From a virus, in IMG/VR virus record IMGVR_UViG_3300030108_000480, positions 1 through 31,873 of that record: DNA of 31,873 nt. The stretch is one strand, 5' to 3'. The notes under the pieces were generated by a model that had not been told where the DNA came from, ran no database searches, and worked only from the letters and a program-made list of their open reading frames with translations. Position numbers and translations under genes: made by a program. Below, piece after piece: positions 12,662-30,012 of this stretch. Every line of letters starts with the position of its first letter. Position 1 is the first letter of the stretch.

Positions 12662-14623
12662 CTAAATCAAGTTATTGGGTTGAAAGTCCTCCATCATCGC
12701 CACGTTGGGCGCGTCTTTTTGTACCTTCGCCAAGCCTTCCATGCGGTCGGTTTCGGCGCGGTATTTATCGACAACCACTTTCTGCGCATCTAGCGCGACC
12801 TTGTTGGCGTCAATCTGGTTTTTCTGTTGCAGCACAGAACGGTCGGCCTGTAGCTGCTGAATAATCGAAGCGGCTTCGGCAAGCTGCGCCTTCATTTGCT
12901 GCTTTTCTGGATCAGCGCCTTGTAACGCGCCAGGAAGCAATTTCTGTAAACGCTCTGCCATTTCTTCCGCACCCGGCCAATCCAAGTTTTTAGCAATGAG
13001 GTCTCCTATCACTGGCGCGGCTTGCGGGAACTGCTGAACCAACAGCATCATTTGCTCCGCAGCTTCAGCGCGTTGCGTGGTAAAGCTAGGCCCAACCTTG
13101 ACGGTCACGTCATACTTGCCCGTGGTTAAATCAAAAATGCGTGGCTCTGGGTCGCCTTCCATTTGCGTCATCTGATTGACCGGCACGTTGCTGGCTTCGT
13201 TGTCTTCGCCCAGCACGCGCAGCACACGGGCCTCGGTGTAGACGCTTGGGATCAGGTCAACGATAATGCGGCCTGCGTGTCGGATGGCGCGGCTCAGATT
13301 GTCAATAAAGTGATAGGTGCCGACATCGCCCTCTTTCTGACGCATCGCCAACGCCTTGCCGCTGACCTCGTTTGACATATTGCCAATGCTGGCGTCGAAC
13401 ATGCCGATGGTGTGCTTGATGTCTTCGCTGGCACTTAAACTTTCCTGCAACACGCCTGCCGGTGGACCGGCAAACGGTTGACGCTGCGGCGGCACGCCGC
13501 CGTCATATTCGATGAAAGCGTGATTGACGCTTGCGGCGGTTTGCCACTTGTTGCTGTCGGTATTGAACGCGCCGACCGGACCAATGAAAGGCGCTTTTGG
13601 TGCCAGGGCAACCAGCTCTGTCGCCGCCGTGCGCCAATAATTATACATCATCTGGCTGTCTTTGGCGAAGTGGATCAGGCTGTGAAAATGCCGCTCCTCG
13701 CCCATCACCACTTCCTCGCCGTAGACCGGCACGATGGGAATGAAGCGCCCGGCCCACTCAATTTCTGACAGGATTTCACTGCCGGTCACAACCTTTTGCG
13801 TAACCTTGTGGCTGCGTGTTAGCCGTGACTGCACGGGCAATATGCCCGCCACTTGCAACAGGTCGCGTTGCTCATCAAAGACATCGGCGTCTAAAATCTG
13901 GCCGTCGCTCAACAACACAATCTCGCGCTGCACTTCCTCGCGTGTCCAATACTCAGCTACGCGCACGGTCTCGTCGGTATACCAAAGCGTGTCCCGCATG
14001 TCGTAGGTCATGCTTTCAAAGTTGACCTTGTCGGCGTCAGGATACATGTCTTCAAATTCGTCATGGGTCAGCATTTCGGTAACGAAACACATATTCCAAT
14101 CAGAGCTATCCACCGCCGTTGAGCGCGGGTCACGGTAGACGCAAAACGGGTTCATTATGCGGTCGATCTTAATGTCGCGCTCAAAGCCGTCATCGCGTGC
14201 AAAGTCAACGTCAACGCGGAAATAGCCAAAGCCCATGCTGACCGCATCATCAATGGCGTTGGTGTAGGCGACATCGGCGTTGCTGCTGGTTTCAATCTGC
14301 TTAATCAGACCGTTCAAAACCTTCGCAGTTTCAACATCGGCGTTGTTATCGACCGGGTGACACTTAATCGCTGGCTTGTTCATACGCGCATCGTTGACAA
14401 TCTGGCGTATAAACGTAGGCATACGGTTGACCGTCAGACACGGGCGGCGGTCACGCTCACGCTGCCGCTTGACCTCTTCGGGCCATTGCGTACCCATGCG
14501 TGCAAACTCAAGGTCGTCCATCGCCTGATGGCGGTTGTCGGCCTCGGCTTCTTCGCACATCTTGAAGGCTTCGCGAATGTCGCGAAGTTCATCGTCTTGC
14601 ATTGCCATTTTATATCGATCCAT
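12662..14623 (-). CDS. Portal protein (P22 gp1-like)
   Basis: A 653-residue portal subunit that would form the dodecameric DNA channel and packaging motor dock. The N-terminus (DDELRDIREAFKMCEEAEA, LEFARMGTQWPEEVKRQRE, RPCLTVNRMPTFIRQIVND) is the standard P22-like portal opening. The central part includes DAVSMGFGYFRVDVDF and YRDPRSTAVDSSDW, both typical. From residue ~530 on there is a long helical barrel-like region (AQLAEAASIIQQLQADRS), ending PNNLI. The start is ambiguous: ATG at 14623 overlaps the upstream gene by 14 bases, and ATGs at 14608 and 14602 follow. The spacing to GGAT mildly favours 14608. Confidence 0.93.
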   Translation of the reverse strand: MDRYKMAMQDDELRDIREAFKMCEEAEADNRHQAMDDLEFARMGTQWPEEVKRQRERDRRPCLTVNRMPTFIRQIVNDARMNKPAIKCHPVDNNADVETAKVLNGLIKQIETSSNADVAYTNAIDDAVSMGFGYFRVDVDFARDDGFERDIKIDRIMNPFCVYRDPRSTAVDSSDWNMCFVTEMLTHDEFEDMYPDADKVNFESMTYDMRDTLWYTDETVRVAEYWTREEVQREIVLLSDGQILDADVFDEQRDLLQVAGILPVQSRLTRSHKVTQKVVTGSEILSEIEWAGRFIPIVPVYGEEVVMGEERHFHSLIHFAKDSQMMYNYWRTAATELVALAPKAPFIGPVGAFNTDSNKWQTAASVNHAFIEYDGGVPPQRQPFAGPPAGVLQESLSASEDIKHTIGMFDASIGNMSNEVSGKALAMRQKEGDVGTYHFIDNLSRAIRHAGRIIVDLIPSVYTEARVLRVLGEDNEASNVPVNQMTQMEGDPEPRIFDLTTGKYDVTVKVGPSFTTQRAEAAEQMMLLVQQFPQAAPVIGDLIAKNLDWPGAEEMAERLQKLLPGALQGADPEKQQMKAQLAEAASIIQQLQADRSVLQQKNQIDANKVALDAQKVVVDKYRAETDRMEGLAKVQKDAPNVAMMEDFQPNNLI

Positions 14624-16088: not shown

Positions 16089-16237
16089 TACTTTTTCTTG
16101 ATCTTCGGCGCACCCTTATGCGCCTCACCAAAAGTCATGCCGCCGCGTACCTTCTTCTCGATCTGCTTCAGCACACGGGGGGTGTGATGCTTGCTGTGAC
16201 GGTCCAGCGCCTTCTTCTGCCGCTTGGTCAAAGTCAT
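16088..16237 (-). CDS. Small basic protein linked to terL (49 aa)
   Basis: A 49-residue protein too short for usual gene lists. The ATG at 16237 overlaps the terL stop (ATGA), and its own stop overlaps the next ATG (TAATG), so it sits exactly in the operon. The sequence is MTLTKRQKKALDRHSKHHTP at the start, then EKKVRGGMTFGEAHKGAP, ending KIKKK. It is highly basic and helical. I recall short proteins of the form LTKRQ-x-A-L-x-R-H-x-x-H-H-T beside terminase in marine phages, so it is a conserved accessory gene. Function unknown; a role in packaging or head completion is a guess from place only. Confidence 0.8.
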   Translation of the reverse strand: MTLTKRQKKALDRHSKHHTPRVLKQIEKKVRGGMTFGEAHKGAPKIKKK

Positions 16238-17556
16238 GCCATCCAGCTCCCACTCGCCGCGTTTGGTCGGCTGTAATATGTGTCTTCAATCTGTGGTGCC
16301 GCCTGCCGTATAGAAACGGCCAAAGTGCGCATACAGTCGGCGTCATGGCTTGACCAATCGTGGGCGGGACGTGACCTAAATATCAGGTTCTTCGGGTCGT
16401 ACACCCGGTGGTAATACCGCAGGCTCTCCAACAACCGCTTGCACTTGTCACGATCAATAAAACACTTGGGCAAGGTCATCTTGACCGCGTTGATGCCTTC
16501 TTCCAACGGCAGCTTGGGGGCGGCCCGGAAGTTGATACCAAGGCTCAAGGCCGTCTCCTGGCGGGTCTTGCCGGTGCCTAACTCACGCTGCGTAATATCA
16601 TGCGGGGCATAGTGGGCCTCATACACATAACCATGCTGCTGCGCCTTCTGATCCAACAAATCCGCATAATAAGGCAGACCCTCGCCGGTCATGTTGACAT
16701 GATCGATAATGCTGATACTGCGGTTGCCATGCGCCATTTGCGCCCAGATGATGCTGGTGCTGTCATTAATGCCCAAGTCCCAAAAGGTCTGCACCTTAAA
16801 CGCAGGGTCATGGGGGATACGACCAATCTGGTCGTTCTCTTCCATGCCTTGCAGCTCTTTATTGTAGACGGCACCAGGGACATTGCTTTCAAAACTGCAC
16901 TCAAATTCAGCTTCATATATGCCTTCTGGCATGGTGCTTTTTGCAGCTTGCAGCTCTTCGTCTGGCAAGATGCCGGTTTCAGACGCCTTGTAGACCGCAC
17001 AGTGCCAATCAGGGTCTTCCTTGGCGTGGCTGTAATAATCGTAAAGCGTATTGTGGCCCATCGGGGTGCCCACAAATATGCAATACGTCTGCTCGCCCTC
17101 AAGGCCGTTACGGTCGGCCAGGGCGGGGCGTACAATCTCAGGAAAGATCGTGTTATCCATCAAGCCAGCCTCATCGATGATGAAGCCGTCAGAGAATATG
17201 CCCCTTAGATTCTGACCGCCTTTTTCACCGCTGAGAAGGCTGATGCGTGCGCCGTTGCCAAAGTCTGCACGCAGCTCGCTCTCGTTAAAGCGGGTGCCCG
17301 GTATGTTCGATGAAAACTGCTTCAGATAATCCCAGAGCGTTGACTTGGCTTGTCGGTAGGTCGGGCAGAGTAAGTGGAAGCGGGGGTTGGGCTTTTTGCT
17401 GGTTAAGGCGTCTCGCAGTAGGTGGTTGATGGCGCAGACCGATTTGCCGAAGCGTCTATGGGTGATAGCTACGCTATACCTATGCTGAGACCACGCCCGG
17501 TGTAGCTCGCGCTGAAGGTGCCGGGGGGCATACGGAATCTCTATGTTTTGCGCCAT
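16234..17556 (-). CDS. terL: Terminase large subunit
   Basis: A 440-residue packaging motor with ATPase and nuclease domains. The Walker A variant THRRFGKSV is at residues 32-40, with PTYRQAKSTLW after it. Walker B is GFIIDEA at 124-130, with the catalytic Glu at 129. VGTPMGHN (162-169) is the coupling motif. The RNase-H-like nuclease starts with FWDLGINDST (D260 and D265) and ends with HDWSSHDADCMRTLA near residue 415, which supplies further acidic metal ligands. Length is normal for short P22/marine terminases. The start at 17556 has only a weak GGGTCGGG upstream. The leader contains a CCTAGG-centred element repeated in the att region (see findings). Confidence 0.95.
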   Translation of the reverse strand: MAQNIEIPYAPRHLQRELHRAWSQHRYSVAITHRRFGKSVCAINHLLRDALTSKKPNPRFHLLCPTYRQAKSTLWDYLKQFSSNIPGTRFNESELRADFGNGARISLLSGEKGGQNLRGIFSDGFIIDEAGLMDNTIFPEIVRPALADRNGLEGEQTYCIFVGTPMGHNTLYDYYSHAKEDPDWHCAVYKASETGILPDEELQAAKSTMPEGIYEAEFECSFESNVPGAVYNKELQGMEENDQIGRIPHDPAFKVQTFWDLGINDSTSIIWAQMAHGNRSISIIDHVNMTGEGLPYYADLLDQKAQQHGYVYEAHYAPHDITQRELGTGKTRQETALSLGINFRAAPKLPLEEGINAVKMTLPKCFIDRDKCKRLLESLRYYHRVYDPKNLIFRSRPAHDWSSHDADCMRTLAVSIRQAAPQIEDTYYSRPNAASGSWMA

Positions 17557-27327: not shown

Positions 27328-28551
27328 TTACGCGCTTTTGAAAACTTTGTTTAATTGTTCACGAACATCGTTATCACGATCTTTCCGATCTTCAAGCCAG
27401 TGACCATAGTTTCGGATGGTTGTGGCAATCTCTGTATGACCCATCATTTGCATGATCTTACGGTCGGTCAGGTTCAAATCGTACAAAAGAACCGACGCAT
27501 AAAAGTGCCGGAAGCCATACAACGTGAACCGCTCAACGCCAGCGCGTTTAATAGCTGGCGCAAGGCCGCGCTTGTTCCAGTTGTTGATAAGTTGAACGGT
27601 GCCGACACGGGTAGGAAAGACTAAGTTGTTGCCGCGTTGCTCCAGCGGCTGCTTGAGCCGCCACGCTTTCAACTCTTGAATCAACTCATCCTCAAGCTCA
27701 ATGGCCCTGATGCCTTGCTCTGTCTTCGGCGTTGAGATCACGCCGTCGGCATTCATCGCCCGTTGTATGTAAACGCGCTTGGCATCAAAATCAAAGTCTG
27801 ACCATTGCAGCACCGTCGTTTCGTTAGGCCGTGCGCCGGTGCGGCTTTGGAAACGAAACAGCAGCGCATAGAACGGCGTGGCCGCTTTGATAACTTTCTC
27901 AATGGCGGTCACCGATATTCGGACGTGGCGTTTCTGCACGTCGGTCTTCTTAGGCTTCTGGATTTTGTCCAGCTTGAGCAACAAGGCCGACGGCATCAAC
28001 TCTGACAACATCGCCCATTTGAGTACGCTCACAAAGAAGGTGAATTTCTTTTGCGCCGTAACCTTGGCGCGACCGGCCCAGATGCTTGGCGCAACATAAT
28101 TCTGGATTTGCGCTATCGTGATCTCGCCAATTCTAATATTGCCGATCTGACCGCTAGGCGTCTGCACCTCCGCGACTTGCTTGAGCGCCAAGATTTTTTC
28201 ATACATCGACGCTTGCAACAGGTCTTTAATGCCGACCATCTTGGCCTGATACTGTTCATATTGATGCACCAAGCAACAGCTTACCGGCTGGCTTAGATTG
28301 ACATCGTTGAAGCAATAGAAACGCGGAGACGTTTTCGGGTTTATATATGTCTCCGACTTCCTAATCGTTTCGCCAACCTCTGCCATGTGATCCTGCGCGG
28401 CCTTTCTGGCCGCACAGTTCTGTTTCACCTTGCCCTTGGTGCAGCGGCAACCTTCGCAACGTGGTATAGACTTCTGACCGCCGTGCGGTCGGGTGTCTGC
28501 CGTTAGGCGTAGCAGACGGTTTTGATCGTCAAAGATTTCCCTGATTATCAT
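27328..28551 (-). CDS. int: Tyrosine recombinase (phage integrase)
   Basis: A 407-residue integrase that should recombine attP with host attB. Catalytic residues seen are R241 in TGARPNET, K276 in TPKTEQG, R348 and H349 in LYGFRHFYAS, H372 in MMGHTEIATT and the nucleophile Y382 in RNYGHW. The usual first His of H-x-x-R is Tyr (Y345). The N-terminal ~100 residues are unusual: C32, C35, C37 and C46, plus C80, C92 and C93, suggesting a zinc-stabilised arm-binding domain. Residues ~100-200 are the core-binding domain. A likely attP lies 0.6-1 kb upstream of it at 29068-29473. The start ATG at 28551 overlaps the preceding gene's stop. Confidence 0.93.
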   Translation of the reverse strand: MIIREIFDDQNRLLRLTADTRPHGGQKSIPRCEGCRCTKGKVKQNCAARKAAQDHMAEVGETIRKSETYINPKTSPRFYCFNDVNLSQPVSCCLVHQYEQYQAKMVGIKDLLQASMYEKILALKQVAEVQTPSGQIGNIRIGEITIAQIQNYVAPSIWAGRAKVTAQKKFTFFVSVLKWAMLSELMPSALLLKLDKIQKPKKTDVQKRHVRISVTAIEKVIKAATPFYALLFRFQSRTGARPNETTVLQWSDFDFDAKRVYIQRAMNADGVISTPKTEQGIRAIELEDELIQELKAWRLKQPLEQRGNNLVFPTRVGTVQLINNWNKRGLAPAIKRAGVERFTLYGFRHFYASVLLYDLNLTDRKIMQMMGHTEIATTIRNYGHWLEDRKDRDNDVREQLNKVFKSA

Positions 28552-29067: not shown

Positions 29068-29214
29068 TTTCTCTCTCCTAAGTTGTGGCGTGATCTCCCT
29101 GACCACGATCAAACATTACGACAAAATAGTGTGCATTACAATAATAAAATGACCTAAAGATCATTTTGTTAGTGATGGCACTTGTTAGCAATTTGTTAAT
29201 CAGCCCCCTAAACG

Positions 29215-29243
29215 CAAAAAAAGCCGCCCCCGTAGGAGCGGCT
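29215..29243 (-). terminator. Intrinsic terminator of the lysis/late transcript
   Basis: On the minus strand AGCCGCTCC, a 4-base loop and GGGGGCGGCT form a stem with one mismatch, followed at once by TTTTTTT (29221-29215). It lies about 310 bases past the holin stop, beyond the tRNA, and so ends the late transcript before the early genes. The transcript would include the tRNA's antisense strand. Confidence 0.8.
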
Positions 29244-29351
29244 AAGTTATTGATTTATAATGTATTCTAGCTATTTGGTCGCAATCTTGGCCCTAGGATT
29301 AGGAATCTAAAAAGGCCGGCGCATAACCTACATACAAATCAATAACTTAGC
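29242..29351. repeat. 16-bp perfect inverted repeat around a tRNA-like core
   Basis: GCTAAGTTATTGATTT (29241-29256) and its exact reverse complement AAATCAATAACTTAGC (29336-29351) flank 79 bases. The 20-base core at 29288-29307 lies near the centre. Shortened copies of the arm, ACAAATCAATAA at 27311-27322 and TCAATAACTTA at 17605-17615, occur elsewhere. Confidence 0.75.
29288..29307 (-). other. Candidate attP core resembling the tRNA-Arg anticodon arm
   Basis: The plus-strand 20-mer TGGCCCTAGGATTAGGAATC matches the reverse complement of tRNA positions 29504-29523 at 17 of 20 places, including an exact 11-mer GATTAGGAATC that spans the anticodon loop CCT. Integrases of several families are known to cross over at the anticodon loop of tRNA genes, so this is a reasonable core site. 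It would differ from a normal attP in not rebuilding the whole tRNA 3' half. Confidence 0.45.
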
Positions 29352-29473
29352 GAAACATCTAGTTTTCACTAGTTACTGATGGGTCATAGCAGGTTAGGAT
29401 AGGCAAGGAAAGTAAAAGATAGGTCAGGACTCTTTGTTAGGCATTTGTTAGTCTAACAAATAATCCTAGGGTC

Positions 29474-29550
29474 GGTCCCGTAGCTCAGTTGGATAGAGCA
29501 CCTGATTCCTAATCAGGGGGCCACAGGTTCGAATCCTGTCGGGACCGCCA
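29474..29550 (+). tRNA. tRNA-Arg, anticodon CCU, CCA encoded
   Basis: A complete 77-base cloverleaf can be folded: acceptor GGTCCCG with CGGGACC, D stem GCTC/GAGC, anticodon stem CCTGA/TCAGG around loop TTCCTAA (anticodon CCT), variable GGGCC, T stem ACAGG/CCTGT around TTCGAAT, discriminator G and encoded CCA. All stems pair without mismatch. It reads AGG codons. It is the only plus-strand gene, three bases from the holin stop. It may be a phage-carried tRNA or host attB-derived sequence captured by the phage; the fully preserved 5' half favours a functional gene. Confidence 0.95.
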
Positions 29551-29553
29551 GCT

Positions 29554-30012
29554 CTACTTTTTGGGACGCATGGCTCTGTCACCAAACCACCAAAGCACCG
29601 CTGTCGATGACATATATATGACGCTCTGAATTATGGTTTCTTGCTGCGCAATGTCGTCGCTGGATGCGTAGACGTACCAAACGATGCCCACAAGCATGAT
29701 CGTCAACGCAGGCCGCATTAGACGTAAGATCGCGGCGACCCACGGGTACGGAATCTCCACTTGCGTCATCATGCCGTAGGACGCGACACGGGCAGCGCCA
29801 GCCGATTGTTCCTCTACAATGGCGCGTTCGTTTTCCAATTCGTCGGCTCTCAATTCCGCTTGCAGCCGGTGCATTTCCATCGTGCGTTCATGTTCGCCTT
29901 TGGCTTTCTTTTCTTCGATGAAGACATCAGCGAAGTTGAAAATCTTGCCAAGCACGCTTCCCAGGATGCCCGTTGCGCCGCCGGTCAAGACGCTGAAAAT
30001 CATGTCCATCAT
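29554..30012 (-). CDS. 3TM holin (GTA-type)
   Basis: A 152-residue membrane protein (ATG 30012, one base after the endolysin stop; ATG 30003 also possible). It has an N-terminal hydrophobic or amphipathic segment (MIFSVLTGGATGILGSVLGK), a charged coiled-coil part (AKGEHERTMEMHRLQAELRA), then two transmembrane helices, ALTIMLVGIVWYVYA and SVIYMSSTAVLWWFGD, ending RAMRPKK. This is the layout of the gene-transfer-agent/phage 3TM holin family (PF11351). It would form the inner-membrane pore that releases the endolysin. Longer upstream starts run into the endolysin gene and are not preferred. Confidence 0.8.
   Translation of the reverse strand: MMDMIFSVLTGGATGILGSVLGKIFNFADVFIEEKKAKGEHERTMEMHRLQAELRADELENERAIVEEQSAGAARVASYGMMTQVEIPYPWVAAILRLMRPALTIMLVGIVWYVYASSDDIAQQETIIQSVIYMSSTAVLWWFGDRAMRPKK

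Follow-up and report, generated by a model that had tools for sequence, protein, structure and literature searches.

We propose that the phage analysed here, a marine uncultured P22-like podovirus, very probably relies on a tRNA of its own for lysogeny, i.e. that the core of its putative attachment site attP equals the anticodon loop of tRNA-Arg(CCU) and that its own tRNA-Arg(CCU) compensates for the host gene lost upon integration. From the sequence we infer three steps: the integrase would recombine the 7-bp core at 29299-29305 with the anticodon loop of a host tRNA-Arg(CCU) gene, integration would break this gene, and the phage tRNA-Arg(CCU) at 29474-29550 would then supply the lost tRNA. 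The target isotype is suggested by the attP core itself, and the complete phage tRNA is most plausibly the compensating component of the system to which this core belongs.

The window, i.e. the whole stretch of 31,873 bases that was analysed, is a virus record that encodes P22-type portal and coat genes. The large terminase subunit (16234-17556) is closest to that of HTVC010P-type pelagiphages (50%), the portal (12662-14623) to those of a Chlorobiaceae phage and of P22-like phages (45%), so that by sequence similarity the head module is a mosaic. As the att region is uninterrupted, the window is not an integrated copy. The region harbouring att and tRNA (29100-29560) has a G+C content of 42%, as compared to 53% across the window.

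Anatomy of the putative attachment site

The integrase gene, the elements upstream of it and the tRNA gene are located as follows:

27328-28551, minus strand: tyrosine integrase, 407 aa (PF00589, 4e-16; phrog_1 integrase, 6.5e-46)
29165-29198, minus strand: two TAACAAA motifs, putative arm-type repeats, at -134 and -107 from the core centre; region conserved in relatives
29222-29243, minus strand: terminator-like hairpin in the gap between attP and integrase (shuffles average 0.8); conserved in relatives
29241-29259, no strand assigned: arm 1 of a 19-nt inverted repeat (18/19 complementary), putative inner sites for integrase or an accessory protein
29288-29319, minus strand: attP core with putative half-sites GGCC.TTT.AG and C.T..GGCCAA flanking a 7-bp centre; conserved in six phages and including the 20-mer discussed below
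29299-29305, minus strand: putative crossover (overlap) region, TTCCTAA in integrase sense, the same 7 nt as in the anticodon loop of tRNA-Arg(CCU), located between invariant half-sites
29333-29351, no strand assigned: arm 2 of the 19-nt inverted repeat (18/19 complementary)
29433-29460, both strands: three TAACAAA motifs (two minus, one plus), putative arm-type repeats, at +134, +145 and +155 from the core centre; conserved in relatives
29474-29550, plus strand: complete tRNA-Arg(CCU) with encoded CCA and anticodon loop at 29506-29512 (ARAGORN; Rfam, 73.4 bits)

We regard 29165-29460 as attP, and with it the explanation as a whole, with high though not full confidence. Five of the nine TAACAAA copies in the window fall within this region and would represent arm-type sites. 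The 19-nt repeats are centred at 29296 and the core at 29302; the core is the approximate centre of symmetry for inner and outer repeats alike. An inverted repeat of 16 bp around the 20-mer had been described in an earlier note made from the window sequence; the repeat is present, but it spans 19 nt. In relatives its arms are conserved whereas their pairing is imperfect, as would be expected of sites bound by a protein more than of a hairpin. The same note placed the 20-mer close to the integrase; the interval between it and the integrase start (28551) is 736 bp long, with the 20-mer on the upstream side, and contains two small ORFs.

This geometry bears on the idea that the phage tRNA gene itself serves as attachment site, in which case recombination with the host gene within the loop would yield two hybrid working tRNAs and the 20-mer would be a by-product. 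The tRNA does contain the same 7-bp loop and adjoins the repeats. Yet the 19-nt and outer repeats centre on 29296-29302, away from the tRNA loop at 29509, six phages share the half-sites around the 20-mer whereas their tRNA stems can vary freely, and in relatives with a canonical site the tRNA part of att lies on the integrase-sense strand, like the 20-mer and unlike the phage tRNA. We therefore consider this scenario improbable.

The 20-mer at 29288-29307 (TGGCCCTAGGATTAGGAATC) and the reverse complement of 29504-29523 (TGGCCCCCTGATTAGGAATC) agree at 17 of 20 positions, including an exact 11-mer over the anticodon loop; coordinates and count are as first reported. In Markov simulations of the window, in which any 20-mer with at least 17/20 identity to any part of the tRNA was counted, 2% of the simulated full-length windows but not one of 200 stretches of 500 bp contained such a match, placing the local match beyond chance. 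That the similarity is nevertheless fortuitous and the true crossover lies elsewhere might be argued from the conserved stretch being only 7 bp long, but besides the simulations the position of this 7-mer speaks against it, as all six phages have it in the centre of conserved half-sites and it matches the loop whichever way it is oriented. A chance origin is thus very unlikely. A second exact inverted repeat, of 11 nt, links the attP core (29291-29301) to a segment just upstream of the tRNA (29461-29471) and is absent from most relatives.

Near relatives, their tRNAs and the reversed cores

The near relatives are five IMG/VR contigs whose integrases are 86-100% identical, and a sixth contig, L196, found via its attP half-site and carrying the start of the integrase gene. 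As L002 is effectively the window phage, the set comprises six distinct phages (window/L002, L003, L004, L005, L006, also listed as L034, and L196). All six contain a complete tRNA-Arg(CCT) gene, and their attP sites, located upstream of the integrase, are built alike. R241, K276, R348, H372 and Y382 are invariant in the family alignment. Among annotated phages, the nearest integrases have less than 35% identity, over part of the protein only.

The half-sites around the attP centre are nearly invariant in the six phages, while anticodon stems and flanks vary. The 11-mer, exact in the window, is matched at 10 of 11 positions or reversed in some relatives: what is kept is the 7-bp loop TTCCTAA or its exact reverse complement, and not the outer 2+2 bp. 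The tRNA-likeness of these outer positions and of the GGGCCA part is, judged by the relatives, not reliably present, and the 11-mer match in the window is, on this comparison, partly fortuitous. The proposed crossover at the anticodon loop of tRNA-Arg(CCU) is supported in substance by the six phages and by the distant integrase relatives described below.

The complete tRNA-Arg(CCU) copy reported earlier, whose link to the att site the earlier note mentioned without explaining it, is called by both ARAGORN and Rfam. In the near relatives the tRNA-Arg(CCT) genes score 64-73 bits (Rfam) and 100% of pairs are kept, although five pairs, four of them in the anticodon stem, have changed on both sides; the tRNA is therefore under selection as a tRNA. 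As four of the five anticodon-stem pairs differ on both sides among the phage tRNAs while the loop is constant, attP corresponds to the loop alone rather than being copied from the tRNA arm of the phage. A search directly upstream of the phage tRNA found no sigma-70-like promoter.

Alternatively, the tRNA might serve lytic growth, e.g. by codon supply or escape from an anticodon nuclease, and be unrelated to the attachment site, as many phages carry tRNAs for such reasons (literature cited in PMC10865867). With 4.7 per 1000 codons, AGG is tied as rarest Arg codon of the phage, a value that reflects the phage's own usage and not that of its host; this gives no special reason for a role in codon supply, which may nevertheless exist. 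Moreover, the tRNA gene lies just outside the attP arm and its isotype matches the attP core in six of six genomes, and integrase relatives with a canonical att have no tRNA. We thus rate this possibility as low.

In the window/L002, L003, L004 and L005 the attP centre reads TTCCTAA, whereas in L006 and L196 it reads TTAGGAA, i.e. the exact reverse complement, without a corresponding change of the phage tRNA. One explanation, which we hold to be somewhat less likely than not, is that target and orientation are determined by nothing more than the 7-bp overlap and that the near-symmetric half-sites let the core flip, the prophage then entering the same loop in the opposite direction; the phage's own tRNA would have freed attP from keeping other tRNA sequence, so that such flips became neutral. 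A reversed core may accordingly reverse the orientation of the prophage. Flipping of the palindrome-flanked loop and a past reversed integration are both possible origins. A different target tRNA as the reason for the reversed core of L006 was set aside as less likely, because this phage, too, encodes tRNA-Arg(CCU).

Distant integrase relatives and the probable direction of change

With a family profile, 75 further viral integrases with 24-37% identity were collected. ARAGORN found a complete tRNA gene in none of the 75 fetched stretches, and among 36 records a tRNA above the Rfam cut-off was present in 0 of 32 distant whole contigs versus four of four near relatives. Most distant relatives instead contain a tRNA or tmRNA 3' end upstream of the integrase, with a perfect or near-perfect T-arm and CCA. 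Isotypes, as read from the loop, are Lys(UUU), Thr(UGU), Arg(UCU), Glu(UUC) and a CAU tRNA, besides tmRNA. In the tRNA-type relatives the anticodon loop is where identity sets in, and the 5' stem for the most part lacks complementarity. By sequence, this layout is the canonical gene-rebuilding arrangement with the anticodon loop as sublocation. Many members of a group comprising L028, L029 and L078-L109 have a tmRNA-like 3' end (CACTCCCGCCA or CAACCGCGCCA) upstream of the integrase; from such ends in many relatives it follows that the integrase family switches between tRNA and tmRNA targets. In L036 and L037 the 3' half of a tRNA (CAU) upstream of the integrase lies on the strand opposite to that in other relatives.

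An attP with a tRNA 3' half, the hallmark of canonical tDNA integration, is thus found in most distant relatives and is missing from the window and its near relatives. The latter contain several of the features that characterize tRNA-dependent lysogeny, namely a tyrosine integrase, a short core taken from inside a tRNA gene and an intact tRNA of the core's isotype. Canonical integration of the window phage, with attP holding the tRNA 3' half and the host gene being rebuilt, would correspond to the usual layout of these relatives, and a faint further similarity (GGGCCA-AGATTGCGA) downstream of the core, with p ~0.03 before correction, is perhaps a relic of such a 3' half. This candidate was rejected, as the similarity occurs in the window only and is absent in L003-L006. 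Since in the window and the near relatives compared neither T-arm nor CCA follows the core, the sequence already contradicts this mode, which is the least probable of the explanations considered. The compared genomes directly show that the tRNA is intact, that attP is conserved and matches the loop, that the 3' half is absent and that the canonical relatives differ from this layout.

The five near relatives group as a single clade in the integrase tree (100/100), and this clade is nested (97/97) with carriers of a tRNA 3' half, including Arg(UCU) types. Being nested among canonical relatives, the window clade has probably lost the 3' half and gained a whole tRNA. A canonical att first and the whole tRNA later is likely, not proven: the clade forms a long branch, and its nearest integrase relative, L035, has neither 3' half nor tRNA and no recognised att. 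As the six phages form one clade, the association of the tRNA with a short core counts as one evolutionary event.

Several points count against tRNA-dependent lysogeny as the best explanation: the conserved identity extends over only 7 bp, the pairing of tRNA and short core stems from a single clade, the core is reversed in two phages, L035 is bare, the phage tRNA lacks a sigma-70-like promoter directly upstream, and the searches for integrated copies were negative. Integrase scans of genome contigs for prophages yielded in one case no confirmed relative and in another only remote, mostly actinobacterial integrases, and scans of viral contigs for junctions with the left and right attP half-sites returned, apart from chance matches, nothing but attP sites that were intact and belonged to this clade (L196 being new). 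As neither an integrated copy nor a host genome nor a hybrid junction was found in the genome and viral contig collections, use of the site is what we infer.

Comparison with known systems

Lysogeny that depends on a phage tRNA was described recently, mainly for phages of Actinobacteria (Guerrero-Bustamante & Hatfull 2024, PMC10865867), mycobacteriophages having attP-attB cores of 8-17 bp and a required phage tRNA. How common this mode is outside Actinobacteria phages was asked there, and its relation to canonical tRNA integration was called unclear (PMC10865867). The clade of marine P22-like podoviruses exhibits sequence hallmarks of this mode and is nested among integrase relatives with canonical 3' halves; these uncultured phages would fit as an added case of an already known mechanism. 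A practical rule may follow: where a lone tRNA gene lies beside the integrase of a temperate phage, its anticodon loop should be sought in the centre of a symmetric repeat, which predicts both attP and the host gene.

The actinobacteriophages Fionnbharth (K4), Gaia (X) and those of cluster L (PMC10865867) share with the window phage a tyrosine integrase, a short core at the anticodon loop of a host tRNA, a cognate phage tRNA, and relatives with canonical long cores; arm-type repeats, putative in the window, and the lack of a rebuilt tRNA would be further parallels. Differences are the isotype, which is Arg(CCU) in the window and Lys, Ile2 or Leu there, the virus, a marine uncultured P22-like podovirus, the clade-wide conservation of 7 bp as compared to cores of 8-17 bp, the occurrence of the core in both orientations, and the position of the tRNA directly at the attP arm; moreover, the system of the window is known from sequence alone.

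In Lo5R7ANS-like prophages of Sinorhizobium meliloti (PMC11476347) a tRNA gene is likewise split mid-way and a substitute tRNA of the same isotype is carried. There, however, the target is tRNA-Leu(UAG) and integrated copies are seen, and the likeness considered here is one of layout. S. meliloti 1021 lists a single tRNA-Arg(CCU) gene, 050, used by prophages of another type (PMC11476347); a tRNA-Arg(CCU) gene can thus be both single-copy and a target in an alphaproteobacterium, which says nothing of the host of the window phage. Finally, canonical tDNA integrases acting at the anticodon loop (Islander, PMC4383910; L039, L041, L045 and L049) resemble the window system in that the integrase is related and the attP identity starts at the anticodon loop, but they keep the 3' half up to CCA and rebuild the gene, whereas the window clade carries a whole tRNA instead.
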